A stretch of 64,000 nt of DNA from positions 4,774,001-4,838,000 of the forward strand of contig NZ_CP017641.1 of NCBI RefSeq assembly GCF_001983935.1. Reading direction: 5' to 3'. The notes under the pieces are model-generated. The model was not told the origin of the DNA. It made no database searches and saw only the letters and a list, made by a program, of their open reading frames with translations. Position 1 is the first letter of the stretch. Each line of letters opens with the position of its first letter. The position numbers and the translations under genes are program-made. This DNA comes from Fuerstiella marisgermanici (GTDB lineage Bacteria; Planctomycetota; Planctomycetia; Planctomycetales; Planctomycetaceae). Shown piece after piece: positions 6,001 through 23,976 of the stretch.

Positions 6001-7257
6001 TAGGCGGATTGCGCGACATTGGATAAGATGGTATAGATGGCAACCTTCAGTGTCAGTGTGATGTTTCACGCTGCTATGTGTGCTGAAATGTTTGAGCCGC
6101 GAAAGGATTCCTGCCATGCCTTTGTCCACCAGTTTTGTCGATCATTTCTCTGATGTTACGGATCCAAGGCGCGGTGAGCCGGTCTATCCGCTTCAAAATA
6201 TTCTGTTCATTGCAGTCTGTGCTGTGATCAGTGGCGCGGATGATTTTGTCGCGATTGCGAAGTTTGGCAGAACGAAACGAGATTGGTTTGCGAAGTATCT
6301 CGATCTGTCCGCAGGGATTCCGTCGCACGATCGTTTCAACGCCATCCTCGCTCTGATTCGTCCTGCAGAATTTGAAAAGTGCTTACTGAATTGGATCACT
6401 TCTCTGCAGAAAATCAGTGACGGACAAATCATCGCGATCGATGGTAAGACACTCCGTCGCAGCTATGACAAAGCCAGTGGCAAGTCGGCCATCCACATGG
6501 TCAGTGCATGGGCCACAGCCAATCATATCAGTCTCGGGCAAGTCGTCGTCGATGCGAAGAGTAATGAGATTACGGCGATTCCCAAACTGCTGGAATTGAT
6601 CGAGGTTTCCGGTGCTTTAGTGACGATTGACGCCATGGGTTGCCAAACGGAAATCGCGTCGAAGATTGTCGACGCAGAGGCGGACTATTGTCTTGCCGCG
6701 AAAGGCAATCAGCCCACGCTACACGCAGGTCTTGTCGCGTTCTTCGCCGACCATTTGGAAGATGACTTTGCACGCTGTCCGGTGCGACGATTTGAAACGA
6801 AAGAAAACACCGGCGGCCGCGAAGATTTGCGACAGTATCTGATCTGTCGTGCGCCGGAGGATCTTCCGGACGCACATCGCTGGAAGAACCTGAAGGCGAT
6901 CGGGATCGCGATCAACAACACTCTCCGCGACGGCAAAATGTGCATCGGCATCCGCTATTACATTTTAAGCCGTTATGTCTCCGGCCGTCGTTTCGCCGAA
7001 GCTGTGCGGAGCCATTGGGGTGTCGAGAACAATTTGCATTGGCAACTGGACGTCACTTTCCAGGAAGATCAATCGAGGATCCGTAAAGGCCACGCAGACA
7101 TGAACTTCAGCATCCTTCGCCGCACGGCGTTGAGTCTTCTGAAAAACGAATCCACAGCCAAGGTGGGGATCAAAAACAAAAGACTCAATGCTGCCTGGGA
7201 TGAGACATACCTCGCGAAAGTCCTGTTCGGCAAATGACTTAACGTGCAATCCCCCTG
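6001..7257 (+). mobile_element. ISAs1-family insertion sequence, complete, 1257 bp
   Basis: The element is bounded by imperfect terminal inverted repeats: the left end starts TAGGCGGATTGCGCG and the right end, read inward on the minus strand, starts CAGGGGGATTGCACG, matching at 12 of 15 positions. It carries one transposase gene on the plus strand that fills most of its length. A perfect 10-bp target duplication flanks it. It inserted in the same orientation as the host hydrolase gene. Both ends and the transposase look intact, so it may still be mobile. Confidence 0.95.
6116..7237 (+). CDS. ISAs1-family transposase
   Basis: A DDE transposase of 373 residues, full length for the ISAs1 (H-repeat-associated) family. 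The three acidic positions are visible: IAIDGKTLRRS, VTIDAMGCQ, and the glutamate in HWGVENNLHWQLDV. The N-terminal DPRR and LGF-like hydrophobic stretch also fit the family. I chose the ATG at 6116 because AAAGGA lies eight bases upstream and the protein then starts MPLSTSFVDHF; the longer frame from 6080 adds twelve residues without a ribosome site. No frameshift or stop interrupts it. Confidence 0.95.
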   Translation: MPLSTSFVDHFSDVTDPRRGEPVYPLQNILFIAVCAVISGADDFVAIAKFGRTKRDWFAKYLDLSAGIPSHDRFNAILALIRPAEFEKCLLNWITSLQKISDGQIIAIDGKTLRRSYDKASGKSAIHMVSAWATANHISLGQVVVDAKSNEITAIPKLLELIEVSGALVTIDAMGCQTEIASKIVDAEADYCLAAKGNQPTLHAGLVAFFADHLEDDFARCPVRRFETKENTGGREDLRQYLICRAPEDLPDAHRWKNLKAIGIAINNTLRDGKMCIGIRYYILSRYVSGRRFAEAVRSHWGVENNLHWQLDVTFQEDQSRIRKGHADMNFSILRRTALSLLKNESTAKVGIKNKRLNAAWDETYLAKVLFGK

Positions 7258-7267
7258 TCATGCGCCG
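7258..7267. repeat. 10-bp target-site duplication, right copy
   Basis: TCATGCGCCG, identical to 5991-6000. Codon phase runs from CCG at 5998-6000 to CTT at 7268, so loss of the element and one copy of this repeat would rejoin the hydrolase frame without change. Confidence 0.95.
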
Positions 7268-7999
7268 CTTGACGACTTTCTGCGACACGCAGCCGACGTG
7301 CCACTCGATTTTTCGACGGCAACGGACTGCCGATATTCGAGTGTCGGGTTTTTGCTGTTGGGAGCGATCGTTGAAAAGGCAACCGGATTGCCGCTGCCAG
7401 AAATTCTGCGGCGAGAGTTCTTTGGTCCTTTACGAATGCAGGATACATGGCTGGGCGTCCCGGAAAATCGAGCGGACGAACTACTACCAACGGTGCTGCC
7501 GTCCATCCTTCCCGCGTGGCAGGCAGAGCCCGACACCGGCGAGGACGCTGTTGAAAGTGGCAACGACTGGGGCTGGAACAGCCGCTATTGGCGCACTCTG
7601 GGAGCACCGTGGGGCGGCATGATTTCTTCCGCCGGCGATCTGGGACGGTACGCCGCCATGATGCTAAGCGGAGGTTTCAGCGACGCGGGAGAACGCATTC
7701 TGCCGAACGCCGTCGTGCAGGCAGCGATGGCAAATCAGACCGGCGAATTGGCGGCGCAGGCAGACTTCGTCGGCGCGGCGCGAGCGTGGGGGCTTGGTTG
7801 GCGGCAAAACTGGCCCGGACATTCGGCTTCGTTTGGCGATTTCCTTTCGCCCACTGCCTTTGGTCATTGGGGAGCCACCGGAACCACGATGTGGATGGAT
7901 CCGGCGAGTCAGCAGTTCGCCGCCATCCTGACCACGACGCCGTACGAAGAAAGCTGCTCAGCGATTCAACGCGTATCCAACATCGTGACGGTGTTGTAA
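7268..7999 (+). pseudogene. serine hydrolase, C-terminal half, disrupted by IS
   Basis: The remaining 243 codons of the hydrolase begun at 5608. The frame starts LDDFLRHAADVPLDF and soon shows YSSVGFLLLGAIVEKATG, the tyrosine motif region (YxN/S) that in beta-lactamase-like esterases helps activate the SxxK serine. HWGATGTTMW near the end corresponds to the third conserved (KTG/HxG-like) motif. An ATG at 7244 inside the IS end and target repeat is in frame and could allow translation of this half, but without the catalytic serine it should be inactive. It converges with the histidine kinase gene, which ends 34 bases away. Confidence 0.9.
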
Positions 8000-8032
8000 C
8001 GACGGACGTTGCAATGAGGATTGCGGACGCAG

Positions 8033-10702
8033 TCAGACGGGGCACTCTGTGAGCCCGCGAACGTGGATCTGCGACGCGATCTTTGTGATTTCCAACAGCT
8101 CCTCCGACATACCGGTCGTCACTTTGTCGGCGGCAAGCTGGTGCAGGCGTTGAGCCGGGCCGGTGAACGCAGGGAAGCCGACCGTGCCGCCCGTACCCTT
8201 CAGCTTGTGCGACAGATCCAGAATCCTGGTGAAGTCCTCCTGTTCGATGGCGTCAGAAATCTGCCCCAACGTCTGAGGCAATGACTGCACGAACTGCACA
8301 ACGATTTCGAAGAACTCAGGGATCTCAAGTGGAAGCGTCGATTCAACAGGCGGCAACGCAGCTGCAGGTCGCTCCGGCTGATATTCTTCGTCACGGTCGC
8401 TGAAGTGTGCCGACGGTGAAGCAGTGGCTTCTGGTAACTCGGCAAGCATTTCGTCGATAGGCGTCACTTCCGCAATCGGCTCCACAGCACACAGCGAGTG
8501 GGTGCTCGGTTCATCAGTGCTTAGCAACGAAGGACTATCTTCCTCTATTGGCGTTTCGTCGAGCGGTAGAATCTCGGCCAGCGTGGCTAACAGCTTGTCG
8601 ATGTCGATAGGTTTGGTCAAAAACCCCGAACAACCAGCCTCAGTACAGCGATCGCGGTCCGACTGCATCACGTTGGCCGTAAGCGCCATAATTGGCGCCT
8701 CGATACCGGCGGCGCGCAGTTTTCTGGTGGCCGTAAAACCGTCCATCACCGGCATCTGCATGTCCATCAGCAGCAGGTCGAAGTCTCCGCCGCTCGCCTT
8801 TTCGACGGCTTGCAAACCGTTTTCCGCCTGGTCGACGATCAGCCCGGATTTCGTCAGCACGAGGCTAACCAGCTGACGGTTGGCAGGCGTGTCGTCGGTA
8901 ACGAGCACTCGCGACGGCTGAAAGCGAATGGTCAGCCCCGACTGCTGACCAGGTTGGTTCAATCGTGCAGTCTGCTGAACGGCGGTTTCATGATCGATCA
9001 AGACAACGTCAGCAAGCTCACCCGGCGAAACGGTAAACGAGAACGTGCTGCCTACGCCCGGCTGACTTTCGACGGCGATGTTCCCGCCCAACGCCTCCGT
9101 TAAGCGTTTGCTGATGGCCAGCCCCAGACCGGTGCCACCAAATCGTCGAGTAACCGAACTGTCGGCCTGCACAAATTCCTGAAAGATCTTCCCACACTGT
9201 TCGCTGGTCATCCCCACACCGGTATCGGTCACTCGAAACCGCACGCGAGGCTGACCGGCTTCGACAACGGTGTCGGCCACCAGACGCACACCGCCGGTTT
9301 CCGTGAACTTGACCGCGTTGCCAACCAGGTTCATCAAAACCTGACGCAGCCGCGTGGGATCAGATTCGATGGTCGATGGAATCTGACCTTCGATCACGTG
9401 ATCCAGTGTGATGCCCTGCTCGACAGCTTTCATCTTCATCACGCTGACAACTTCGGTCATCAGTTCCCACGGATTGCACGGACGAATTTCCAGTTCCATG
9501 CGGCCGGATTCGATCTTGGACAAGTCCAGAATGTCGTTGATCAGACCAACAAGGTGAGTCCCGCTGGCGTGGATCGTGTTGAGGTATTCTCGCCGAGTAA
9601 CTTCATCGTCTTCCATGCCGCGGCGCAAAATGTCGGTGAAGCCCACGATGGCGTTCATCGGGTTACGAATTTCATGGCTCATGTTCGCCAGAAAACTACT
9701 CTTGGCTTCGTTGGCCGCTTCGGCTTCGTCCTTGGCTTCGCGCAGTTCGATCTTATTTTTCTCAAGCACGGTGACCTCGTCGAATGTCACCATGACGCCG
9801 CGGTTTTCGCCGTTGTTGCCCGCAAGCGGAGAACAGTTGACTCGCAGAATCCGCGCCGGACCACCGCCGTCGTTGCACAATTGCATCATGACGTTGGAAA
9901 CGGATTCCTGCGTCGCCAGCGTGTTCGCCCACGGCATGCTGCCTTCGTCGCCGTCATTTTCGATGAGTCGAAAATTCAGTGCGGACGCTTTCTCTCCGAT
10001 CAGTTTGTCGGTGTCATGCCCGGTCAACTTTTCCATCGCGCTGTTGGCCAGCAGGACGCGATCGTTCAGCCCGACAATCATTAGACCTTCCGACAGAATG
10101 TCCAGGGCTTCTCGCACGCGCCGCGGGATGGCGTGCGATGGGTCCAGGTTCTTGAGGACCATGGTCAGAAACCAGCGGAACGAAAAGAACGCGACGGGAC
10201 CGCAGAACACAAGCAACGTAGTCATGCGCGACTGGAACTGCCCGAATCGCCCCGCCGGACGCAGTGGTTCGAACGCGACTTCGATACGGCCCCAGTTGTC
10301 CTGTCGCTGAGCAGACAGGGTCACGTGCATAAATCGTTCAGTTGAATGTTCGCCAAAATCAGCGGGCCAGGTTTCATTGTGCGGCCCGGCCTGGAGGATT
10401 AGCTGACCGTCATTCGTGCGGACTCCGGCGGACAGAAGCTGTTTGTGTCGGTTGACCAGAAGTTCCATCACGCCCTGCAGCTTTTGCAGTTGCCCTGCTT
10501 CAATAATCGGCGCACTGCTGAAAGCCAGCGATTCCACAATTTGAACGCGATTCGCGGTCACGATCCGTTCTTCATCGGGGATGAGCTTCAGATAGTTGGC
10601 GGCCATCAAAATGCCCAGCATCGAGCACACCAGGCCAAGCGTGATTCGCGTGGCGGCGGTGAAGCGGAACATGGCAGGGAGTTTTAACTTGAGGTTTGGC
10701 AT
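8033..10702 (-). CDS. hybrid sensor histidine kinase with receiver and HPt domains
   Basis: A membrane-bound phosphorelay kinase of 889 residues. Visible in order: helix at 15-38, a short extracytoplasmic region, a second helix at about 160-182, a PAS-like domain at 200-315, HisKA with phospho-acceptor His343 in MSHEIRNPM, an ATPase domain with N box [10 protein letters not shown]1 DTGVGM and G2 GTGLGLA, a receiver domain with Asp647 in LLLMDMQMP and Lys in LTKP, and a C-terminal HPt domain with His832 in SHKLKGTGG. All phosphotransfer residues are present, so the chain can carry out most of a relay itself; the output regulator is not nearby. It starts 24 bases after the stop codon of the giant surface protein gene on the same strand, suggesting co-transcription. 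Confidence 0.93.
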
Positions 10703-10726
10703 TGTTATTTTCAGGCTCGTGGCCGG

Positions 10727-13700
10727 CTATTCGTTCTTCTTTTTGTCGCCGGCATTTTGACGGTCGACGATATCCTGCAGCGAGTCGCCTTCCTCGCCGC
10801 CGCCAACGCCGTCCATGACCAACAGCGGGTCAAACCATGTCCAGACTGGCAACTGACTTAACAGCCCCAGGGCCAGCATCCCGGTGCGCATTGCAGTCAG
10901 GACAGAACCGATCACAATCGATGTCCCCGCGACCGCCACCGTGCTGGTTGTGATGTCGTTAAAGGTGTATTCAGAATCCAGTTTGTCTTCAAAACCGGTC
11001 ACGTGGTGCACAGTGCCTCGCAGTTCGGCAAAGCGTTCGTACCCAAACAGCTGAGTGTCAACCGACGTGACCAGGCCCTTCGGGTCACCGCCGTTAAGCA
11101 GCCATAGTTCTCGAGCTTGCTGTTCCAACGACTTCAGCGCCGAGTTTTCAACGCGATCCGAGCCTTCCGCAGCCACTGCGACCGTCAGGTCAAAGCCAAA
11201 CTCGTATTGAGTTTCTCCCGCCAGCGTCGCCTGAAATGCAGCAAATGCATCTGTGTCGTCGTCCTCGCCCACCACAACCTGCGGGACTTCGTCATTGTCA
11301 TCGTCATCAGTGAAGTTCGGCGCGGTCGCCGTTGGCGTTGTGCCATCTGGTGATTCTGATCCGTCAGACGCATTCGCGTCATCACCGGAATTGGTTTCAT
11401 CGCCCGCCGTGGGCTGTGACGCTCCGTCCTGTGGCATCGTACCGGTGTCGGTGGATGGAGCAGGTACCGTGACCGGGGCCTGCACAATTACAGTTCGGGC
11501 AGTGCTGTTGCCACTGCCGTCAGAGACGTAGAACCGAAACGAGTCTGAACCGGTGAATTCAGTATTGGCCTGGTACGTAAACGATCCGTCGGCCTGAACC
11601 GTCAGCGTTCCCTGACTCGGCATCGTATCAAGTACGACTGTGAGCGCGTCACCTTCGACATCAGTGACCCCCGCCAGCAATCCGGGAGAGGACACGAGGA
11701 CTGATTCACCGGTGCCCAGGTCGTAGCGATGATTCACCGGTGACGAAAACACGGGCACATCATTGACGGGAAGAACTGTCACATCAAAAGTGGTAGAAGC
11801 CGAAGCGATTCCGTCTGAAACCGTGACCGTGATCGTAGCTGGCCCACCGAAAGCATTCGCCTGCGGCGCAAACTGAACCTGCCGAGTTCCTCCGCTGTTT
11901 CTGACGACGATGTTGGAATCTGAAATCAGGCTCTGGTTGCTGGACGTCGCAGTGACATTTAAAGCGGAATCAGATGTATCGATGTCGCTAACCGTGAAGT
12001 TGGCAGATGCGGTCAACGTATCTTCAGTGGTGACAATGTCCGGAATGGAAGCAATCGTCGGCGCGTCGTTGACCGGAGTCACCGTGACATCAAAGTTGGT
12101 CGTGGTGATTGAACTTCCATCTGATACAGAAATGGTAATCGTGGCGGTCCCCACGGCGTTGGTGACGGGCGACAAGCTAACACTGCGGTTCGCCCCGGTT
12201 CCGGTTATGGTGATGTCCGCGTCGGCGATGACGCTCTGGTCATTCGATGATGCAGTGACAATCAGGCTATTTACTGCCGAGTCGTTGTCGCCAACGGTAA
12301 AGTTAATCGGCCCCAGCGGAGCATCTTCCGTCGTTGATGCATCGGCAATCGCGGACACGGTGGGTTCGTCGTTGGCCGGCGAAACCGACAGTGTTACCGT
12401 TGCGGTCGCAATGCCTCCGAAGCCGTCCGAAATCTGGTACGTAAATGAATCATTCGTGGTCTCGCTGCCGTTGTGCGTGTAGCTGAATGATCCATCCGCG
12501 TTTAGTGTGAACGCGGATGCGAACGCCGGGCTGCTGATCAAAGTGACGGCCAGCGGGTTGCCATCGACGTCGCTGTCGTTGTTGATCACGCCCAGCAATG
12601 CGGACGCATTCAATGAGTTGCCTTCGGTGACCGAATAGCTGTCATCCTGAGCAACCGGCGTTTCATTCTGGTTAGTCACCCCAATAAAGATCGTCTGCGT
12701 GGATGACGTATTGGTTCCGTCGGATACGGTCAGGCTTAGCGTGTAGCTGGTCGTCGTTTCGAAGTCGAGGTTGCTGTTGTCCGTGACGGTAATCTCACCC
12801 GTGCTGCTGTTGATCCCGAAAATACCGTCCGTGTTTCCGCCGGTAATCGTCCAACCGCTGAAGGTAGTTCCGGCTTCACGGTCCGTGGCAACGGCGGTGC
12901 CGAGTGACGCACCATTGGCCGCGGCTTCACTCACGCTAAAGGACTGACCGTCCGCGATTACCGGCGCACTGTCGTTCACGTCTGTTACTGTAATCGCCAC
13001 TGTCTGCGACGACGACGTATTGATTCCGTCGGATACGGTCAGGCTCAGTGTGTAGGTCGCCGCCGATTCGAAGTCGAGATTGCTGTTGTCCGCGACGGTG
13101 ATTTCGCCCGTGCTGCTGTCGATCGCGAAAATGCCGGCCGTATTGCCGCCCGTGATCGTCCAACCGCTAAAGGTGGTTCCGGCATCTGGGTCAGTCGCCG
13201 TAACCGTACCCAGCGACGTGCCATCGGGCGCAGCTTCACTAACACTAAAAGTGTGGCCAGCCGTAATCACCGGAGCACTATCGTTGGCAGCCGTAACCCC
13301 AATGCCCACCGTTTGCACAGTCGACGTATTGGCCCCGTCGGATACGGAAAGGCTTAGCGTGTAACTGGTCGTCGTTTCGAAGTCGAGGTTGCTGTTGTCC
13401 GCGACAGTGATCTCACCCGTGCTGCTATTGATCGAGAAAATGTTGTCTGTGTTGCCGCCTGTGATTGTCCAATTGCTGAAGGTGGTGCCGGCATCAGCAT
13501 CCGTAGCCGCCACCGTTCCCAGCGAAGTCCCATTCAACGCCGATTCACTCACGCTGAAGGTCTGACCGCCCGTGATCGCCGGCGTGTTGTCATTGGCGGC
13601 CGTGATGCCAATTGCAACGGTCTGGCTGGATGATGAATTCGTTCCATCCGAGACTGTCAGGCTCAGCGTGTAACTGGTCGTCGTTTCGAAATCGAGGTTG

Positions 13701-16700
13701 CTATCATCGGCGATGGTGATTTCGCCTGTGTTGCTGTTGATCCCGAAGATGCCGTCCGCGTTGCCGCCTGTGATTGTCCAGCTGCTGAAGGTGGTGCCGG
13801 CATCAGCATCACTCGCGACCACAGTCCCCAGCGACGCACCGGTCACCGCCGCTTCGCTCACGCTGAAAGTCTGACCGCTCGGGATCACCGGCGCACTGTC
13901 GTTCACATCTGTTACGGTAATCGCGACTGTCTGCGACGACGACGTGTTGCTTCCGTCGGATACGGTCAGGCTTAATGTGTAGCTGGTCGTCGTTTCGAAG
14001 TCGAGGTTGCTGTTGTCCGCGACAGTGATTGCGCCCGTACTGCTATTGATCGCAAATATTCCGTCCGCATTGCCGCTGGTGATCGTCCAACTGCTGAAGG
14101 TGGTTCCGGCATCAGCATCCGTAACGGCCACCATACCCAATGATGCGCCATTGCCTGCCGCTTCACTCACACTGAAAGTCTGGCCGCCTGTGATCACCGG
14201 TGTGCTGTCGTTCACATCCGTCACGGTAATCGCCACTGTCTGCGACGACGACGTATTGGCCCCGTCGGATACGGTCAGACTCAGCGTGTAGCTGGTCGTC
14301 GTTTCGAAATCGAGGTTGCTGTTATCGGCAACGGTAATCTCGCCCGTGCTGCTGTTGATCGCGAAAATGCCGTCCACATTACCACCAGTGATCGTCCAGT
14401 TGCTAAACGTGGTTCCGGCATCAGCATCCGTGGCCGCCGCCGTTCCCAGCGATGTGCCATTTGACGCCACTTCGCTCACGTTGAAGGTCTGACCGCCGGT
14501 GATCACCGGTGCATTGTTGTTTAAGCCGGTGACGGTAATTGAGACTGTTGCCGTATCAGAGTTGCCGCCGTTTGTGGCGGTGTAGCTAAACGTGTCAACT
14601 CCCGTAAAGCCACTTTGCGGTGTGTAAGTAAACGACCCATTGCCGTTCAGGGTGACGTCGCCAATTGTGGCAGATGTGTCCAGGTTTGATGCGGTCAACG
14701 TGCTTGCTGCAGCAGTTGCAGTAGATTCGTAATTGGTATGGATGCTGCCGGACGGCAATGCCGATTCGTACAACCGAACGGCTGCGATTTCGCCCTGAAA
14801 GTTTGAGGTATTCGACGTCGCTGTCTCACCATTCACCGCCCCCAGTCCGCTGGCGTCCGCATTTGCCCAAGAAGTCAGTCCAGCGACATCCATAACGGAA
14901 TCGACGAGGTGCCCATTCACATACAGATAGACGTCTGGCACAGCCGACGCATTGTCGATAACTGCCATCACCTGAATGAATTCGTCCGCGGCAATCTCAG
15001 TTGCCAGGTCGTATGTTGCCAGAGCCGTCGTGCTGCCTTTCTGAACCAGTAATTCCAGCGTGGCCCCATTCAGCGACAAGGACGTCCCCTGTCCGTTTCC
15101 ACCTGTTTCGAAAATGATTTCCTGCCCGATGGCATCGGTCGGGTTGAACCAGATCTCAAAACTGGCCGGATCGTCGGTGGGGTTTCCGGCGATATCGGCA
15201 TAGGCCGCTGTTGTTCCGCCGCCCGTGCCATCGAAGACCCATGCCGCCTGAATATTGCTGAGTGATGTCGTTGGGGAAGTTGTGTAGGTAACGCCACCAC
15301 CACTGAAGTCCCAGTCATAACCGTTGGTTCCGGTACCGCTACTCCAAACATTGTCCCCATCGTTGTCGGTCGCAGCTGTGTACCCCAATGTATTGCCAGC
15401 CGTCGCTGCGGGCCCCTGAGCATCGTTCAACAGGACTCCGGCAGCGGAGATGTTTAGCGACACGTCTTCCATGGTTGAATAGGTGTCATCACTAGCTGTG
15501 ACGGCCAGGTCGTATCGCAGTTGGTGAACAACAGGGCCAGTGCTTTCCACCGGCCCGTCGCCACTCCACAAAACCAGGATATCGTCGATGTTCCGCATCG
15601 CGACCGATGTATCCTGTTGATTGCCGTTCACATTCACGTTAACGATCTGTCGAGCCTGTAGGGCCGCTTGAGAGGGATCAAAGCGGCGAATGAACACGGC
15701 GCTGCCATCCCCATCTCCATTGTCTGTCCCTTCAAACACGATCGCAAAGTTGCCCGCATCATCCATGGCGATTGACGGGGACGTGTGATCGATGCCAGCC
15801 CCGGCGCTGACATTCACGTACTCGATGCCCCCTGTAATATTGTTGCCATCGTGATCGAATTTAGCGGCCCAGACACCTGCGTTAACACCGGCAATTCCAC
15901 TTGATCGATATGTCACCACAGAATTGCCGGAAGCATCCATTGCCACTGCCGGCCTTGTGTCATTAGAGAGGGCACTGCCAAGCATCACGTCATTGTGTGT
16001 CGCTAAACCATCAGCATCGAAGTGCCTCACATAAGTGCTGCCGCTGCGTTCGTGCGCAATCACGAATTGTCCGGCGTCGTTCATGGCCACAGCCGCATTG
16101 GTCTGAGCCCCACCGTCCGTTGCAGCGGTTGTCACGTCCGCAACATCTTTGGCGGTGCCGTCTGCGTTGAATCGCCGATGGAACACATCGCTATTCAGCG
16201 GACCATCACCTTCCCACGCGATAACGAATTCGCCCGTCGCACCACTCATTGCAATGACGGAATCTTTTTGGGTTCCCGTATTTGCCGAGTTGGCTCGTAT
16301 CTCGTTTGAGAGTGCTGTTCCGTTCGCGGCGAAGCGACGGAAGTACACACTAGCTGCCGTGCCGTCCTGGTTCAGACTGGTCCACGTGACGATAAAATTG
16401 CCCGCGTCATCGGACGCGACTCTGGCCCATTTCTGGTCGTCGGCCATGATTTGGTTGACCAGGATTTCGTCGGTCGTCGCATTACCGCCTGCGTCAAAAC
16501 GCTGAGCGAACACGCCCCAGCCGCTGCCATCATGTCCGAGGCCTGACCAGGTCTTCACGTAACTGCCGTCAGCCGCCACCGCAATCGCATTTTGACTGCC
16601 TCGATCTTCCGCTGCTGATGACCGCGTGGTCCCCGCGACGACTTCAAAAGCACCGATGTCCGGATTCGCATCACGCGTGACCCCACGTTGATCAACGGTG

Positions 16701-18460
16701 GGCGCACCGGTTGTGGTTCCATTGTTGATCGCTGTGCTGCCAGTTTGAAGCATGTAAGCTGAGGTCTGCCCGCCATTCGACGTCAAAGTCGAACGGATCA
16801 GCGGATCAACGCCAATCTGATCCCCGGTCCCTGCAAGTCCGGCACTGCCATCACTGTCTATGTTGAACCCACCGGAATTAAGCGCCCTGTTTACATTCTG
16901 CGATGTCGGACTGTGCACAATGGTATTAGTGATCGTGACTTCGCCACCGTCCTTATCGAAAATGCCTCCACCGTCGGGGGCAACGTTATAAGCGATCGTG
17001 GAGTTGACAATGGTGATCTCTTTGTCCGTCCAAATGCCGCCGCCTTCCGAAGCTGCCGTGTTGTTGCCGATCGTAACATTGATCACGGCACCTCCGTCTG
17101 CACCGTGAAAGTAAATCCCCGCCCCTTTGTCCGCTGAGTTGCCGGCAATCAGAACTCGATCAAGATTCAGGGTTCCATGAACGTGGATCGCTCCGCCGTC
17201 GCCAGACTGGCCGTTGTTATTTATGACGGCGGAATCCGTCAGGTTTAGAGTGCTTGAGTCGTCGACAAAGATTCCTGCCCCGTTGTTTGATGCAATCCCG
17301 TTTTGAATGGTGACCCCGGATATAGTGACAACAGTCGAATTATTCTGCACGTGAAAGACCCGGTCGAAGGCATTGCCGTCAATGATGGTCGATCCAGCAC
17401 CACCGCCGATTACAGTGACACTCTCCAGGATGTCCAGGTCTCCCTCGTTGCCGTTGTCGTCGCCCGCTGAACCAAGCGACAATGTGTAGGTGCCGTTGCC
17501 CAGCAGAATCGTGTCACCACCGCTGCCCGAATTGGCCTGCAAGATCGCTTCTCGCAGCGAAGTAACGCCATCACCGCCATCGATGGTATCGTCAGTCGTA
17601 TCAACGGTGATCGTCGCCAGTTTGCCTTCCCAGTTCGCCTGGAGATCGGCAGTAAAGGCGACTGACGTTTCGATTTCGCCGATCGCATATTCCAGATCCC
17701 AGTCGCCACCGTATTTGGCGTGGCCCGTGTCGTCATCACTGGCTGCGACGTCGGTCCCCAACAGCGTGTTCAGGGATTCCGTCAGAGCGATCCCCTTATC
17801 TGACGCAGCCAGATCGCAGCCATAAATCAGCAGGTCCGCTCCTTCGGTCAATGAATGCTGCCATGTGACCAGTTCTGCCGCGTGACGGGAGATATTCTTT
17901 TGGCTTAGTACGCTGGTGCCGAGGAGTATTTCGCCGTCTTCACCGTGTGACACCAGATGGATGGCGGACACTCCGCTTCGCTCACCCAAAGCGTCCGTGA
18001 TCTGGCTAATTCCGTCGCGGCGAGGATCCAGAACAAGAATCTCGAAGTTACGGTCCATTTGCGACGTCAGGTCGGCCACGAGCTGTTCGTGATCGTTGGC
18101 CGACGGATCGATGACCACCAACTCCACACTGTGTTGAGCTTCCACGCTGTGTTGAGCGGCCGTGTCGTGCGGAGCAGTTTCTTCGCTTTGCTGCGCGTCT
18201 TCGCTGTGTGAGTGAGGACCAGCCACTGCGACTTCTTCAGCCGCCGGAGCATCACCTTCCTGCGCGTCAACAACATCCACCGGTTCCGCCACCACGGCCG
18301 CTGGCGAAGCACTCATAAGAATGCGTTGCTCGAGCTGCACCAACTGCGGCAGGTGCATTGCTTCCGTCGGATCGTCACGTAACCCGCTCCGTACCGCGCT
18401 GAGTGCTTCGTCCAGCAGCAGACGCGTTTTCTTTCGCAGGTTGTTGTAGTGAAGAGTCAT
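10727..18460 (-). CDS. giant surface protein: LEPR-XLL-like, DUF4347, CSLREA/beta-helix, LamG-like and cadherin-like domains
   Basis: A 2577-residue multidomain protein predicted to be exported. LEQRILMSASP at 43-53 matches the planctomycete LEPR-XLL N-terminal signature; no classical signal peptide is seen. A DUF4347 domain follows at about 110-270 (HLVSHGEDGEI, IYGCDLAAS), then a CSLREA-like start (VTSLREAILQAN) leading into a right-handed beta-helix rich in Asn/Gly. Next come repeats like a beta-propeller (FDADG-type), a LamG-like region, six nearly identical 103-residue cadherin-like units, and more Ig/cadherin-like domains. The C-terminus has a hydrophobic segment and ends in a Lys-rich tail. 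Such proteins are thought to act in adhesion or surface layers. Start ATG at 18460 lacks a clear ribosome site. The kinase gene downstream is likely co-transcribed. Confidence 0.9.
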   Translation of the reverse strand: MTLHYNNLRKKTRLLLDEALSAVRSGLRDDPTEAMHLPQLVQLEQRILMSASPAAVVAEPVDVVDAQEGDAPAAEEVAVAGPHSHSEDAQQSEETAPHDTAAQHSVEAQHSVELVVIDPSANDHEQLVADLTSQMDRNFEILVLDPRRDGISQITDALGERSGVSAIHLVSHGEDGEILLGTSVLSQKNISRHAAELVTWQHSLTEGADLLIYGCDLAASDKGIALTESLNTLLGTDVAASDDDTGHAKYGGDWDLEYAIGEIETSVAFTADLQANWEGKLATITVDTTDDTIDGGDGVTSLREAILQANSGSGGDTILLGNGTYTLSLGSAGDDNGNEGDLDILESVTVIGGGAGSTIIDGNAFDRVFHVQNNSTVVTISGVTIQNGIASNNGAGIFVDDSSTLNLTDSAVINNNGQSGDGGAIHVHGTLNLDRVLIAGNSADKGAGIYFHGADGGAVINVTIGNNTAASEGGGIWTDKEITIVNSTIAYNVAPDGGGIFDKDGGEVTITNTIVHSPTSQNVNRALNSGGFNIDSDGSAGLAGTGDQIGVDPLIRSTLTSNGGQTSAYMLQTGSTAINNGTTTGAPTVDQRGVTRDANPDIGAFEVVAGTTRSSAAEDRGSQNAIAVAADGSYVKTWSGLGHDGSGWGVFAQRFDAGGNATTDEILVNQIMADDQKWARVASDDAGNFIVTWTSLNQDGTAASVYFRRFAANGTALSNEIRANSANTGTQKDSVIAMSGATGEFVIAWEGDGPLNSDVFHRRFNADGTAKDVADVTTAATDGGAQTNAAVAMNDAGQFVIAHERSGSTYVRHFDADGLATHNDVMLGSALSNDTRPAVAMDASGNSVVTYRSSGIAGVNAGVWAAKFDHDGNNITGGIEYVNVSAGAGIDHTSPSIAMDDAGNFAIVFEGTDNGDGDGSAVFIRRFDPSQAALQARQIVNVNVNGNQQDTSVAMRNIDDILVLWSGDGPVESTGPVVHQLRYDLAVTASDDTYSTMEDVSLNISAAGVLLNDAQGPAATAGNTLGYTAATDNDGDNVWSSGTGTNGYDWDFSGGGVTYTTSPTTSLSNIQAAWVFDGTGGGTTAAYADIAGNPTDDPASFEIWFNPTDAIGQEIIFETGGNGQGTSLSLNGATLELLVQKGSTTALATYDLATEIAADEFIQVMAVIDNASAVPDVYLYVNGHLVDSVMDVAGLTSWANADASGLGAVNGETATSNTSNFQGEIAAVRLYESALPSGSIHTNYESTATAAASTLTASNLDTSATIGDVTLNGNGSFTYTPQSGFTGVDTFSYTATNGGNSDTATVSITVTGLNNNAPVITGGQTFNVSEVASNGTSLGTAAATDADAGTTFSNWTITGGNVDGIFAINSSTGEITVADNSNLDFETTTSYTLSLTVSDGANTSSSQTVAITVTDVNDSTPVITGGQTFSVSEAAGNGASLGMVAVTDADAGTTFSSWTITSGNADGIFAINSSTGAITVADNSNLDFETTTSYTLSLTVSDGSNTSSSQTVAITVTDVNDSAPVIPSGQTFSVSEAAVTGASLGTVVASDADAGTTFSSWTITGGNADGIFGINSNTGEITIADDSNLDFETTTSYTLSLTVSDGTNSSSSQTVAIGITAANDNTPAITGGQTFSVSESALNGTSLGTVAATDADAGTTFSNWTITGGNTDNIFSINSSTGEITVADNSNLDFETTTSYTLSLSVSDGANTSTVQTVGIGVTAANDSAPVITAGHTFSVSEAAPDGTSLGTVTATDPDAGTTFSGWTITGGNTAGIFAIDSSTGEITVADNSNLDFESAATYTLSLTVSDGINTSSSQTVAITVTDVNDSAPVIADGQSFSVSEAAANGASLGTAVATDREAGTTFSGWTITGGNTDGIFGINSSTGEITVTDNSNLDFETTTSYTLSLTVSDGTNTSSTQTIFIGVTNQNETPVAQDDSYSVTEGNSLNASALLGVINNDSDVDGNPLAVTLISSPAFASAFTLNADGSFSYTHNGSETTNDSFTYQISDGFGGIATATVTLSVSPANDEPTVSAIADASTTEDAPLGPINFTVGDNDSAVNSLIVTASSNDQSVIADADITITGTGANRSVSLSPVTNAVGTATITISVSDGSSITTTNFDVTVTPVNDAPTIASIPDIVTTEDTLTASANFTVSDIDTSDSALNVTATSSNQSLISDSNIVVRNSGGTRQVQFAPQANAFGGPATITVTVSDGIASASTTFDVTVLPVNDVPVFSSPVNHRYDLGTGESVLVSSPGLLAGVTDVEGDALTVVLDTMPSQGTLTVQADGSFTYQANTEFTGSDSFRFYVSDGSGNSTARTVIVQAPVTVPAPSTDTGTMPQDGASQPTAGDETNSGDDANASDGSESPDGTTPTATAPNFTDDDDNDEVPQVVVGEDDDTDAFAAFQATLAGETQYEFGFDLTVAVAAEGSDRVENSALKSLEQQARELWLLNGGDPKGLVTSVDTQLFGYERFAELRGTVHHVTGFEDKLDSEYTFNDITTSTVAVAGTSIVIGSVLTAMRTGMLALGLLSQLPVWTWFDPLLVMDGVGGGEEGDSLQDIVDRQNAGDKKKNE
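12670..14520 (-). repeat. six tandem 309-bp coding repeats (cadherin-like units)
   Basis: Within the giant gene a 309-bp unit (103 residues) recurs six times. The same sequence landmark, GTGTA(G/A)(C/G)TGG or a close variant, falls at 12741, 13050, 13359, 13668, 13977 and 14286, exactly 309 bases apart each time. Each unit encodes (A/T)PxI-GQTFSVSE, a DADAGTTFSxWTITGGN core, and NSNLDFETTTSYTLS. Constant spacing and high nucleotide similarity point to recent duplication or ongoing homogenisation by recombination. Confidence 0.92.
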
Positions 18461-18784
18461 AGGTGGGCATTTCGAGATTATTCAACTCTAAAACCTAAAC
18501 CATGCGACTCCCCTGCGCCCGACTTTTTGCCACGTATTCCCCAAGCCACATACCGAAACATTTGCCCAAGTCGGAACAAGTAGACTAACCAGCAGCCGCG
18601 ACCCTGACGCCAATTGAAAGCAACGGCTGGCGTGAAACCATTGCCCCCCACACACGTGAAAGATTAGTACTAGCCCGCAAAATCGGAGAATCCGTCGTCA
18701 GCGACTGGCATCGGGATACGGAAGTGGCTTCGATATATCCACACAGCGCGTGATATGGCTGTGATCAGGAACGGAGGCCAGTCG
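18461..18784. other. divergent intergenic region, no gene
   Basis: 324 bases between the divergently read surface-protein gene and Ser/Thr kinase gene. Promoters for both must lie here, but I see no convincing paired -35/-10 boxes. An upstream in-frame ATG for the kinase at 18755 is rejected in favour of 18785, which has GGAGG before it. Confidence 0.4.
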
Positions 18785-19741
18785 ATGGATGTGAATTCAC
18801 GGTCGAAAAAACAGCAACGACGGATCGGCAAATATGTTCTTCTCGAACGCCTGGGTTTCGGCGGCATGAGCCGTGTGTTTTCTGCAATTGCCGACGACAC
18901 GCAAGGCAAAGTTGCACTGAAGATCACGCCAGTTGATAACAACAGCGATGTTGAATTTATCGACTTCCAGCGTGAAGTGGCGATCGGCCGTCGTCTGCAA
19001 CACCCACACGTTGTCTCTGCGATCGAGTGCGGCTGCTGTGATGGACGCCTGTTCCTGGCGATGCCAATCGTGGAAGGAGCCACACTGTCGAATATGACTC
19101 GCCTGCGAGACCCGTTACGAAAGCCAGCGTCGCAGCGTTCGCGTGTTTTCGATGACGAATGGGCGCTACCGTGGGTCGAAGGCAACTGGCCACACCTGGC
19201 TCGCATCGCCGCACAGCTATCAAGTGCGTTGGCCGCCTGTCATGCGGCTGGGGTAATCCATCGCGACATCAAACCGAGCAACATCCTGATGGACCGCGAC
19301 GGCGATGTGTTCCTGGCAGACTTCGGGTTAGCCGTGATGCACGGACAGCCGTCACGTTTCGAGGTGACAAACAAAGACGGAACTGCTCGTTACCTACCAC
19401 CAGAAGTATTCAGTAAACAGCGCGATGGACGCAGCGACATTTATTCGCTGGGCCTGACATTGCATGAACTCGCGACTGGACGCAAACCGTGGGGCAATAT
19501 TCACCACGAAGTCATTCGAGCCACCCGAACAGAATTTCGTGTGCCATCCGTTCGCAGTATTCGACCTGAGGTACCGATAGAACTGGCTGCGTGTATCGAC
19601 CAGGCCGCTGCGGACAAACCGGGGCGGCGCTTCCAGACGGCGGATGCGATGCAACAGGCATTTCTGGCCGCGGCGAGCCGCATGCCATCCGACCGACTTG
19701 TGGCGCCGATCAAAATCGCCAGCAAGTCGATTGCTCGCTAA
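18785..19741 (+). CDS. Hanks-type serine/threonine protein kinase
   Basis: A cytoplasmic protein kinase of 318 residues. It shows a glycine loop (LGFGGMSRVF), the ATP-anchoring lysine in VALKI, catalytic loop HRDIKPSNIL, magnesium site DFG in LADFGLAV, an activation segment ending in the APE-like PPEVF, and SDIYSLG of subdomain IX. There is no membrane helix or sensor domain after the catalytic core, unlike PknB types, so it is a soluble kinase; its substrates are unknown. The ATG at 18785 is preceded by GGAGG with seven bases between. It is divergent from the giant surface protein gene and stands alone on its strand. Confidence 0.93.
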   Translation: MDVNSRSKKQQRRIGKYVLLERLGFGGMSRVFSAIADDTQGKVALKITPVDNNSDVEFIDFQREVAIGRRLQHPHVVSAIECGCCDGRLFLAMPIVEGATLSNMTRLRDPLRKPASQRSRVFDDEWALPWVEGNWPHLARIAAQLSSALAACHAAGVIHRDIKPSNILMDRDGDVFLADFGLAVMHGQPSRFEVTNKDGTARYLPPEVFSKQRDGRSDIYSLGLTLHELATGRKPWGNIHHEVIRATRTEFRVPSVRSIRPEVPIELAACIDQAAADKPGRRFQTADAMQQAFLAAASRMPSDRLVAPIKIASKSIAR

Positions 19742-21253: not shown

Positions 21254-22594
21254 TCAAAATTGCAGCACCAGCTTTTGAGTTTCCTTCAACGTGCGCGAAC
21301 GAATGAATACGGTGTCTCGCACGGTCGCATCCGCACTGACAATCGGAACTACAAATCTGGCGTAGCCGTTGTTGATGGGAAGAGCTCCCTGCATGGAACC
21401 AGGAATCGGCTTACGATAGCCGTCGCTGCCCACCACCACGCCCTGCAAGTCCGACAGATCGTAGCGTTGAATATTCTTCGGCAGCCGCACCTGAATAATG
21501 ATCCGATACGGTTCGCCGGCTTTGGGTGTCGACGGTTCGGTCCAGACAGAAAAACTGCCTTCCGAAACCGCTGACGGCGGCGCGGGGTTGTAGTCTCCAA
21601 ACGCAGACGCAGCCGCCGACTGTTTAGCAGCACTGTCGTTACTGCTTGAAGCACTGCTGGATGATTCCGGCGGCGGATCGGTGGCCACTTCGCTGACGAG
21701 GTCCGGATTCAACTCCAGCTTTTCCTCTTCCATTTCCGTGACGTCCGGTTCCTCTTCAGGCATGGATTCCGGTTCGGCTTCCGGCTGAAGTTCGGGCTCC
21801 GGCGATACGACTTCGAAGGTGGCAACTTCTGTTTCAACGGTCTCAGCGAACGTTGCGTCGATCAGCAAACTGACCGCGTTTTCCGGCCCATGCACCACGA
21901 TGGCGGCCATCAGCAGGAACAGCAACCAGTGAACGTAGAATGTTGTAAACCACGTCGTCCAGCGATGATTCGCGACCACTCGCTTAAACCATTCGCGATA
22001 CGTTTCTGGTTCTGGCGGCGGAGGATCAATCACCTGAAAGTCGCCCACCGCAGCGCTGGTGAGCGACTTTGACGCGACAACTCGCCCATCACCCGACGCC
22101 GTTTTCTTGCGCTCAGTCTTTGTCGAAACCTCAAAGGCGGCGAAGTCAGTCGCGACGGCCGCAGGCGCATGTCGCGCTGCAGACGTTTTGCGACTCGCGC
22201 GCCGTTTGGCGTCGCGGTCCTTACTCGACCGACTCGATTCAAGGTAAGCCGGCTTGAAGTCGGCTTCAGAAAACCGTGGCGCGGTGGTCGCATCAGTTTT
22301 GCCAGCCGGCTTGTCCGAGGCCGAAGAATGGTTCGTTTTTGCGCTGGCGGCCAGTTCTGTAACCGTCAGCTGCACGACGGCTTGTTCGGCTCTTTCCGCC
22401 ACGATGTTGCTGCGGATTCGTTCTAGCCGGCGGCGACGCTTTTCTGCGGACAACCCGGTCTTTGGCGTGAGTCGATTCAGCCCACCGCCGGTATTCGCGC
22501 CTTCTCTGTGTGATGAAGTGTGACGCGACGAACGATCTTTAACGGGCTCCTGTGCAAACAGCATGTCAACATCTTGAGTTCTTGACTGGATCAC
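21254..22594 (-). CDS. membrane-anchored protein of unknown function, long disordered N-terminal region
   Basis: A 446-residue protein. The first ~200 residues are basic, Ser/Thr/Ala-rich and probably disordered and cytoplasmic. A single hydrophobic segment (HWLLFLLMAAIVVHG) follows, then an acidic Glu/Pro stretch, a serine run, and a compact beta-rich C-terminal domain from about residue 345 (FSVWTEPSTPKAGEPYRI onward). The topology suggests inside-out anchoring with the C-terminal domain in the periplasm. A GTG at 22594 is used because AAGGA lies eight bases upstream. It lies 35 bases downstream of the next gene, which has the same architecture, so the two are probably one operon. I recognise no family. 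Confidence 0.75.
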   Translation of the reverse strand: MIQSRTQDVDMLFAQEPVKDRSSRHTSSHREGANTGGGLNRLTPKTGLSAEKRRRRLERIRSNIVAERAEQAVVQLTVTELAASAKTNHSSASDKPAGKTDATTAPRFSEADFKPAYLESSRSSKDRDAKRRASRKTSAARHAPAAVATDFAAFEVSTKTERKKTASGDGRVVASKSLTSAAVGDFQVIDPPPPEPETYREWFKRVVANHRWTTWFTTFYVHWLLFLLMAAIVVHGPENAVSLLIDATFAETVETEVATFEVVSPEPELQPEAEPESMPEEEPDVTEMEEEKLELNPDLVSEVATDPPPESSSSASSSNDSAAKQSAAASAFGDYNPAPPSAVSEGSFSVWTEPSTPKAGEPYRIIIQVRLPKNIQRYDLSDLQGVVVGSDGYRKPIPGSMQGALPINNGYARFVVPIVSADATVRDTVFIRSRTLKETQKLVLQF

Positions 22595-22629
22595 GGCAAT
22601 AGTCCTTATTGCGAATGGCTTTGACGTCT

Positions 22630-23976
22630 TTATCTGCGCACAAAGGTAAATTCACGCGAACGGCGAATACCTTCGGGGAGCTTCCGGAACTGTTTGGCGA
22701 TTCGGAATCGACGCACTTCGTCCGGCGAATCCAGAAACACAATTACCAGGTGATACACACTGCCAGGTATTGAATCTTCGTTGCCAAAGTTCACTCGCCC
22801 GGCAAACGCATTGCCGCGAGCACCCACCATTTGCTGCACCCACCAGTGGTCGTCGGGAAGGCCGGACCGCACCAGCGCAATCGGAAATCCGGTCGTGCGT
22901 GTCACGGCAACAAGGTTTTCAATTTTTGAAACGGGTCGCGATTCCAGCGGCTGCTGCAGGATGATGTCCACGACTTCCGCCGGCGTTTCTTCGCCCAATC
23001 CGGGAGCGAACGGGTTAATCATTCGAGGGCTCTCAATGACCGGTGCATCCTGAGACGGCGTGACCTCAGTCTTGTCCGGCCGGCGTGAACGACGGCGACG
23101 TGATCGACTTTCCGACGTTGCTGATTTCTCATCACCCTGCCGAACACCGACGTCGTCAGAACGAGGTGCGGCTGGCGACGTGACGGTTTTTGATGAGCCG
23201 CCAAGATTGCTGGCAACCCCGCCGACCATCGACAAGTGTCCGGTGGCATCAAATGCCGACGGTGGGCTGATTTCTGGTTCTACAAACGGTTCTTCGTCGG
23301 CATCGTCTTCCGCCATCACGACGTCTTTCGCAGAAGCCACGACATCGGCGGGTGCAGTTCGATCCTCGACATCGGCGTAAGTTGGCAGAGGCAGGTCGCT
23401 GTCGAATGGTGATTCGATGTTCCGCTCGGGTGTTGGTGTCGGAACATGCCCGCCGCCGGTGTGCTTTGATGAGACCGCATCAGCAGCAGCCATCGCCATG
23501 ACAGCGTCGGTGTCAGACTGCTTCTGCGGCGTGGTCGGTCGCAGATAAGTCGCCGTGCTGTCGGACGTAGTTGACGGTGTGTTCAAAACCGGAGGCAACG
23601 CTGCCATCCGCGTATCCGCTTGCGGCGGAACCACGGGCGGCCGCGCAGGCGCCACAACAGCAGGCGATGATGGCGGCGGAACGGTAACTGAAGCTGGTGG
23701 CGAAGCGGTATTCGCCATGACGCTGTCGAAGTTTGCGGATGCGTCGACGGAACCATGGACAGTGGCGTCAAGCACAATATTCGACGAGTCTTCGGCCAGC
23801 AGTGCGTCGAGTTCCCGATCGGCTGGGTCTTGTAGACACAGCAACAGGCACAGCGGCGCGATCGTCATAAATACGACGGCCAGTCCTGTGATATGTGGGT
23901 AGTATTTAGGCTTCAACAAAACAGGCCCTTCTTCCGAGTTCGCTTTCACAATGGGTGAAATCACTCTGGGCAACAA
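22630..23976 (-). CDS. membrane-anchored protein of unknown function, partner of the downstream gene
   Basis: Up to 448 residues. A helix near residues 28-46 (GLAVVFMTIAPLCLLLCL) anchors it, followed by about 300 Pro/Ala/Asp/Ser-rich residues that look disordered, and a C-terminal domain of about 110 residues containing DDHWWVQQM, RVNFGNEDSIPGSVYHLVIVFL and a basic end. That terminal domain looks like a small beta-sandwich and I believe similar ones occur in other planctomycete proteins, though no name is certain. The start is unclear: TTG at 23976 is the longest; GTG or TTG codons closer to the helix, after GAAGAAGGG, are as likely. It is the first gene of a probable two-gene unit. Confidence 0.7.
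   Translation of the reverse strand: MLPRVISPIVKANSEEGPVLLKPKYYPHITGLAVVFMTIAPLCLLLCLQDPADRELDALLAEDSSNIVLDATVHGSVDASANFDSVMANTASPPASVTVPPPSSPAVVAPARPPVVPPQADTRMAALPPVLNTPSTTSDSTATYLRPTTPQKQSDTDAVMAMAAADAVSSKHTGGGHVPTPTPERNIESPFDSDLPLPTYADVEDRTAPADVVASAKDVVMAEDDADEEPFVEPEISPPSAFDATGHLSMVGGVASNLGGSSKTVTSPAAPRSDDVGVRQGDEKSATSESRSRRRRSRRPDKTEVTPSQDAPVIESPRMINPFAPGLGEETPAEVVDIILQQPLESRPVSKIENLVAVTRTTGFPIALVRSGLPDDHWWVQQMVGARGNAFAGRVNFGNEDSIPGSVYHLVIVFLDSPDEVRRFRIAKQFRKLPEGIRRSREFTFVRR

Follow-up and report, generated by a model that had tools for sequence, protein, structure and literature searches.

The window analysed here, a stretch of 64,000 nucleotides of Fuerstiella marisgermanici (contig NZ_CP017641.1, positions 4,774,001 to 4,838,000), encodes a giant surface protein and, directly downstream on the same minus strand, a hybrid histidine kinase. 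On balance we favour, with moderate confidence, the reading that the two genes form one outside-in receptor, in which the surface protein serves as the sensory arm of the kinase and the signal is passed to cyclic di-GMP (c-di-GMP). Such a receptor would signal across the membrane to c-di-GMP, its input being an unusually large protein. As judged from sequence conservation, the pair is defined by two undescribed modules, a membrane module at the C-terminus of the surface protein (hereafter the C-module) and the sensor module of the kinase. The link between the surface protein and a signalling receptor is well supported, because the two are encoded side by side in relatives and in four phyla and co-occur across whole genomes. 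The preliminary description of this DNA had proposed a surface-contact sensing pair; the tie between surface protein and receptor holds, while contact is plausible as one of several possible stimuli.

The gene for the surface protein occupies positions 10727..18460 (minus strand, ATG start, 2577 aa) and that of the kinase positions 8033..10702 (minus strand, ATG start, 889 aa). Both open reading frames (ORFs) and the 24 bases between the stop of the first and the start of the second (10703-10726) are as previously described. A scan of positions 7600-10900 found no terminator-like site in the 24-base gap. The three such sites on the minus strand all lie within the kinase ORF, and the count on both strands (four) shows no excess over the shuffle mean of 3.9. 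The domains already named for the two proteins (DUF4347 and cadherin in the first, a kinase with receiver and HPt domains in the second) were retrieved with Pfam models. Two features of the surface protein, its C-terminal membrane module and a LEPR-like motif, had gone unnoticed.

The C-module spans approximately aa 2428-2577 (10730..11179, minus strand), with a membrane segment at approximately aa 2505-2543, and was delimited by hydropathy and by its conservation across phyla. Its consensus core reads GYVxWLxRGGxLLxSxLSSLPAWxxxDPLPVL, and an acidic stretch containing ESLE comes after it. In an alignment of 48 rows, five core residues (G, P, W, D and P) never vary and Y, W, R, G, A and L are conserved in at least 90%; the window sequence deviates from the consensus at Y and W (GSVLTAMRTG). 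None of the 48 members matched a Pfam or NCBIfam model at E 0.01, and neither a comparison of the profile with PDB sequences nor a plasmid search returned any match.

The sensor module of the kinase (10145..10657, minus strand) consists of two hydrophobic segments (aa 16-37 and 159-186) flanking a domain predicted to lie outside the membrane (aa 38-158). Its AlphaFold2 model (predicted local distance difference test, pLDDT, 92.3) aligned with WalK at Z 11.9 over 103 residues (root mean square deviation, r.m.s.d., 2.5), which places it in the Cache (PDC-type) fold. It also aligned with the output domain of a LapD orthologue (4u64; Z 9.8, Foldseek probability 0.99, E 0.05) and with DvhD (9rc2; Z 9.2), values near 9.8 being common to many Cache domains in the same match list. 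Absence of a protein from the Foldseek or VIA lists carried no weight as evidence. One Glu and a Trp-Gly pair are invariant in the sensor alignment (A3, 50 rows). The sensor stretch of the window kinase has no Pfam match, no Pfam family matches more than two of the A3 rows (SMP_2, best E 0.0012), and the profile retrieved only two chance-level matches from PDB sequences (E >0.5). As modelled, the sensor is an undescribed module in which a Cache domain stands between two transmembrane helices. The A3 profile was built mostly from adjacent partners, and other sensors may therefore be missed.

The pair is kept together in relatives, the point on which the preliminary description had staked it. 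A scan with one genome per species retrieved 208 relatives of the C-module, and 79 loci were taken from the best 80 of these; many lie on short contigs of metagenome-assembled genomes, taxonomic groups were read from record titles, and ORF ends were set by the first start, so that gap lengths are approximate. The 79 loci belong to Planctomycetota, Gamma- and Betaproteobacteria, Desulfobacterota and Nitrospirota, four phyla in all, and the sensor is encoded directly downstream on the same strand in 56 of them (24 out of 31 planctomycete loci and 32 out of 48 others). When 58 genomes, comprising that of the window and those of relatives, were searched with each half separately, the C-module query being the single window sequence, the C-module was detected in 16 and the sensor in 20 (two of them weak matches). 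At 13 places, spread over 11 of the 58 genomes (that of the window among them), the two halves are direct neighbours.

Co-occurrence was also seen in samples of two phyla, in searches that scored no more than 8 to 11 candidates from the first look at each genome. Strong sensor matches were found in five out of 392 Planctomycetota genomes and the C-module in the same five, while among 398 Pseudomonadota genomes strong matches to sensor and C-module coincided in the same four. The genome of the window and the centre genome, G455, had been picked as carriers of the system; once both are set aside, the sets that match comprise four out of 391 and three out of 397. The chance of exact coincidence is about 1e-9 in Planctomycetota and about 1e-7 in Pseudomonadota if genomes are taken as independent, which they are not, G288 and G391 belonging to the same genus.

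The two modules also show correlated evolution. Mantel tests were run on 54 pairs, after removal of near-duplicates (8 of 62 pairs). The distances between C-modules correlated with those between sensors at r = 0.56 overall, at 0.59 in the 25 planctomycete pairs and at 0.55 in the 29 others, and none of 2000 shuffles, within-group shuffles included, reached these values. In the 42 pairs with a kinase, the C-module correlated at 0.62 with the sensor and at 0.51 with the catalytic core; the partial correlation was 0.46 between C-module and sensor given the core, and 0.20 between C-module and core given the sensor. With one pair of unclear output left out, 24 planctomycete pairs (13 kinase, 11 cyclase) were compared; in 23 of them the nearest C-module shared the output type, against a mean of 11.5 and a maximum of 21 of 24 in 2000 shuffles. 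By these distances the C-module follows the sensor more closely than it follows the core of the kinase, which supports physical coupling of the two modules, short of proof.

Beyond its sensor, the window kinase has the make-up of a hybrid histidine kinase, with every domain above its Pfam cut-off (all on the minus strand). A PAS domain at approximately aa 195-312 (9767..10120; PAS_4, 202-312, 32.9 bits versus a cut-off of 23.1) is followed by HisKA (aa 333-400, 9503..9706), HATPase_c (aa 448-559, 9026..9361), a receiver (Response_reg, aa 599-708, 8579..8908) and HPt (Hpt, aa 799-868, 8099..8308). The expected phospho-acceptors H343 (HisKA), D647 (receiver) and H832 (HPt) are all present, as are the motifs NLVGNAVKF at 458, DTGVGM at 493 and GGTGLGL at 522; these residues and motifs presumably play the roles known from their families.

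Across relatives, the same sensor and PAS domain precede three kinds of output: HisKA-HATPase-REC-HPt as in the window, GGDEF-HD, and GGDEF without HD. The GGDEF-HD fusions were recognized by motif at ten loci and by Pfam at L057, L067 and L072, and the GGDEF type without HD by Pfam in L188 and by motif in L189. The GGDEF and HD motifs of the fused partners are intact. The kinase type is often followed by a third gene, whose assignment as REC-EAL or REC-HD-GYP relied on a phmmer receiver match and self-written motif patterns. Among the non-planctomycete kinase loci, 27 have 1.5 kb or more of sequence behind the kinase, and in 26 of these a REC-EAL gene comes next; that of L104, the sole one checked by Pfam, is REC-GGDEF-EAL. 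In planctomycetes, a REC-HD-GYP gene was recognized by motif at 3 of 13 kinase loci (L100, L116 and L134). Where it can be read from these domains and motifs, the output is c-di-GMP turnover, and the signal seems to act on the c-di-GMP control of whether cells live free or attached.

The window operon lacks such a third gene, and an orthologue of the regulator lies unlinked, 3 Mb away, in the genome of the window (G000; 8.92 Mb in a single contig). It is encoded at G000:C1:1736464-1738059 and comprises 532 aa with the motifs HDVGK and HHEKWDGSGYP of a REC-HD-GYP protein. This protein is the only close homologue in its genome of the third-gene product of L116 (56% identity; the next has 35%). 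Its homologues are encoded behind the kinase in G003, G004, G034 and G021, with 79% identity in G003 and 69% in G004, where they follow directly. Judging from this gene order, it is probably the cognate regulator of the window kinase. Convergent with the kinase gene, downstream of it, are a DDE transposase gene (6080..7237, plus strand; Pfam) and an ORF at 7244-7999 that matches part of a beta-lactamase Pfam model (positions 123-314 of 329). These two fill the region that holds the response regulator gene in G003 and G004. Since regulator homologues follow the kinase in those two genomes, whereas the transposase and the ORF occupy that place in the window, the regulator gene likely became separated from the window operon. 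The kinase had previously been called a self-contained phosphorelay. That it is self-contained is doubtful, because related operons often carry a c-di-GMP regulator as a third gene and the orthologue in the window genome is unlinked.

The window genome contains a second giant open frame of approximately 9820 to 9850 codons (G000:C1:258934-287901) with a C-module at C1:287467-287901. This C-module is most like those with GGDEF-HD partners in relatives, and no sensor is encoded beside it. Elsewhere in the same genome, a sensor protein that bears GGDEF and HD motifs is encoded on its own at G000:C1:3654260-3654829 (the loci of this second pair are L136, L137 and L139). The second giant and the lone sensor are probably a second pair that has become separated.

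Elsewhere in the surface protein, Pfam and NCBIfam models detected six Cadherin stretches, Big_9, further Ig- or cadherin-like repeats and a choice-of-anchor Q stretch. Near the N-terminus lies the LEPR-like motif LEQRILMSAS, at aa 43 (within aa 42-60; 18281..18337, minus strand). It was found with the NCBIfam model NF012209 (LEPR-XLL), whose curated cut-off of 17 lies just above the score of 16.2 bits, so that by this score the protein stays short of the family threshold while carrying a LEPR-like motif. The motif was detected in 25 out of 30 related surface ORFs whose start lies inside the locus and in 0 out of 493 windows of 170 aa further along the same related surface proteins; it is perhaps related to export.

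DUF4347 (PF14252) follows at aa 114-281 (17618..18121, minus strand), where the full model was covered at 182.1 bits (cut-off 24.6). A His in an SHG motif and a Cys in a YGC motif (His172 and Cys215 in the window), candidates for a catalytic pair, are invariant in 35 out of 35 aligned copies, each directly after a predicted strand in the structural model (pLDDT 92.6). Foldseek matched this model to Tce1 (E 9.6e-6) and caspase-3 (E 2.0e-5). The top VIA match was again Tce1 (9qpe_G; Z 14.0, 147 residues aligned, r.m.s.d. 2.6), and further matches were SAVED-CHAT (Z 9.7), caspase-3 (8.1), and C11 and legumain (both 7.7). Tce1, SAVED-CHAT and caspase-3 belong to clan CD. DUF4347 is thus predicted to have the caspase-type fold of clan CD cysteine peptidases with a conserved His-Cys pair, and within the surface protein it may be catalytic. 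Of the 30 related surface ORFs that begin within their locus, 26 contain it, and for L097 and L104 it is found in the ORF immediately upstream.

The preliminary description had framed the pair through DUF4347 and the cadherin repeats. As the defining link, these were tried and rejected, because a third DUF4347 giant of the window genome (approximately 3530 aa; G000:C1:6085866-6086375, L138) has neither a C-module match nor a sensor beside it.

Several observations weigh against a single two-gene receptor. The adjacent partner is missing from 23 of the 79 loci, two of which have less than 1.3 kb of downstream sequence. These 23 loci come from 21 genomes; among the 20 that were searched, 19 contain a sensor elsewhere and the sole exception is the genome of L130, which has no sensor match, and in the 21st (that of L063, apparently G005) the sensor is on another contig. 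Of the 16 genomes with a C-module, G006, whose C-module is a broken fragment, has no sensor match. Conversely, G024, G030 and G043 have a sensor (E 6e-38, 8e-16 and 3e-25, respectively) and G051 and G054 weak sensor matches, all five without a C-module match, and G455 carries four C-modules versus two sensors. Weak matches in the phylum searches do not coincide either: one sensor in Planctomycetota (E 8.8e-6), and seven sensors and one C-module in Pseudomonadota (E 2.8e-5 to 7.8e-4). Mantel tests leave part of common descent in the correlations. As regards the output, L085 is the only one of the 27 non-planctomycete kinase loci without a REC-EAL third gene, the output could not be read for the other 10 of the 13 planctomycete kinase loci, and in G431, where the sensor kinase is split into two ORFs and diverges from a DUF4347 gene, no gene for c-di-GMP turnover was seen. 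Nor is the regulator confined to genomes with the system. Matches at E 1e-60 or better were found in 14 of the 22 genomes with either module and lacking in the other eight, whereas 6 of the 28 genomes without either module match contain one; a regulator match of 77% is present even in G002, where the single sensor detected belongs to the GGDEF-HD type. Finally, how the bulk of a protein would be exported while its C-terminus stays in the inner membrane is left unexplained.

Under the receptor reading, the giant protein would be exported and displayed while its C-module stays in the inner membrane, where it would meet the Cache-type sensor, itself held by two membrane helices. Binding, loading or cutting of the displayed part (the last possibly by the caspase-like DUF4347 of the same protein) would change the state of the C-module, and the sensor would then alter the activity of the kinase. 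Candidate stimuli are contact, a ligand, calcium (through the cadherins) and cleavage. Phosphate would pass from H343 to D647 to H832 and from there to a REC-HD-GYP regulator encoded apart from the kinase, probably that at G000:C1:1736464-1738059, whose phosphorylation may alter c-di-GMP breakdown and thereby attachment. A bolder version can be held only tentatively: that a DUF4347-gated giant of the cadherin type passes surface binding or pull through its membrane module to a Cache transducer, as an integrin-like member of a widespread and undescribed outside-in class in which c-di-GMP is set by interchangeable outputs (phosphorelay, diguanylate cyclase, phosphodiesterase).

Three other explanations were weighed. 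The kinase might monitor export, sensing the passage or jamming of the giant protein and adjusting c-di-GMP and the envelope, with the C-module acting as a secretion signal rather than as a contact receptor. This would fit the C-module being the last-made part of the surface protein, and export-type genes, for HlyD adaptors, a short SecA-like ATPase and M50-HlyD proteins, were seen close to the surface gene in L079, L081, L092, L099, L101, L112, L118, L119, L125 and L192. However, no export-type gene was found among the nine ORFs around the window pair or in the ORFs scanned on the upstream side in L076, L088 and L093, and c-di-GMP as an output would suit attachment better than secretion stress; we regard an export monitor as rather unlikely. 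Control might instead run from the inside out: depending on its own state, the membrane partner would retain or release the surface protein, in the manner of LapD acting through LapG. The likeness of the sensor to the output domain of the LapD orthologue and the predicted protease fold of DUF4347 would agree with this, yet the alignment score of that likeness is one shared by many Cache domains, and kinases with a receiver and HPt are usually senders of signals. The fused partners moreover have intact GGDEF and HD motifs, whereas the cytoplasmic module of LapD is described, in a passage of PMC13090378, as catalytically inactive. Taken together, these points make inside-out control decidedly improbable.

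Both genes might also simply be co-expressed from one operon and serve attachment in parallel, with no physical coupling. The proposed interaction between the modules is indeed deduced, but co-occurrence holds even where the genes lie apart and the C-module correlates more with the sensor than with the catalytic core, so that we give this last explanation very little credence. A receptor with the surface protein as its sensory arm remains the reading that we prefer.

In some lineages, the LEPR motif and the linked HlyD, M50-HlyD and SecA-like genes hint at a special export route, possibly one for giant proteins of the LEPR type. Genes for the short SecA-like ATPase, HlyD and M50-HlyD proteins lie by the surface gene, for example in L192 (G018:C24 152-7205). 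A dedicated SecA-like exporter was not retained as a fixed part of the system. SecA-like genes with open frames of approximately 590-790 codons were found in all 16 planctomycete genomes that have the system and in 9 out of the 14 that lack it; outside the planctomycetes, the counts were 8 out of 15 with it and 5 out of 14 without. A SecA-like gene lies near the pair on the same contig in, e.g., G018, G288, G391 and G455, and none is near the window pair. Elsewhere in the window, a serine/threonine protein kinase is encoded at 18755-19741, divergent from the surface gene with 294 bases between them, and two adjoining minus-strand ORFs of 446 and 448 aa at 21254-23976 have no Pfam match at E 0.001.

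How bacteria sense the touch of a surface is a long-standing question, and the functions of planctomycete giant genes are mostly unknown. A defined and testable gene set, present in several phyla and in named strains of Marinobacter, Neptunomonas, Aquabacterium and Desulfosarcina, genetically ties a giant surface protein to a c-di-GMP transducer, and it brings with it two modules not described before and a possible function for DUF4347. No paper describing the pair was found in the literature searched, which left aside bioRxiv preprints and most subscription journals; the preliminary description likewise knew of no such system. A genome of almost 9 Mb with 45 giant genes has been reported for Fuerstia, in a main text from which the words cadherin and histidine kinase are absent (PMC5177795). 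For BapP of Pseudoalteromonas, the genes of a type 1 secretion system adjoin, and the text does not mention a histidine kinase (PMC12153261).

Parts of the pair resemble characterized proteins. Hybrid kinases of the BarA type likewise unite HisKA, HATPase, REC and HPt in one chain. The window kinase differs in its sensor and in having a giant surface protein as genetic partner, and it scores 372.8 bits against a BarA equivalog cut-off of 890. Tce1, the top structural match of the window domain (9qpe_G), shares with it the Pfam family name DUF4347. In the literature, Tce1 (PA0256) is assigned to DUF4347 in a passage of PMC8262886, and passages of PMC13323088 call it a putative cysteine protease in which a His and a Cys form a pair. 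It is a 310-residue candidate for an injected effector, whereas the window DUF4347 forms the N-terminal portion of a surface protein that is linked to a partner in signalling.

Among whole systems, LapA-LapG-LapD of Pseudomonas and DvhA-DvhG-DvhD of Desulfovibrio also combine a large adhesin with an inner-membrane receptor bearing periplasmic and c-di-GMP domains, and the sensor folds of a LapD orthologue and of DvhD belong to the same broad Cache class as that of the window. In these systems c-di-GMP controls a separate periplasmic protease, according to passages of PMC13090378 and PMC5231407, the latter of which also names YfiBNR. Neither a LapD/MoxY periplasmic nor a HAMP-GGDEF-EAL Pfam domain was detected in the window kinase at E 0.1, nor in the sensor rows, and no LapG-type protease was named among the nine neighbouring ORFs scanned in the window, a genome-wide search not having been made. 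In contrast to Lap and Dvh, the partner here is a kinase or cyclase with intact motifs, the signal would flow from the outside in, and the surface protein bears a C-terminal membrane module and a protease-like domain of its own. In LuxP-LuxQ and YfiB-YfiN-YfiR, a membrane sensor reads an outside protein, as we propose for the window pair; LuxP together with LuxQ is named in a structure title. The outside partners of the LuxP and YfiB type are small, and such sensors read a protein and not a small molecule alone. The surface partner described here differs from them in its size, approximately 1200 to 9800 residues, and in carrying its own membrane module.

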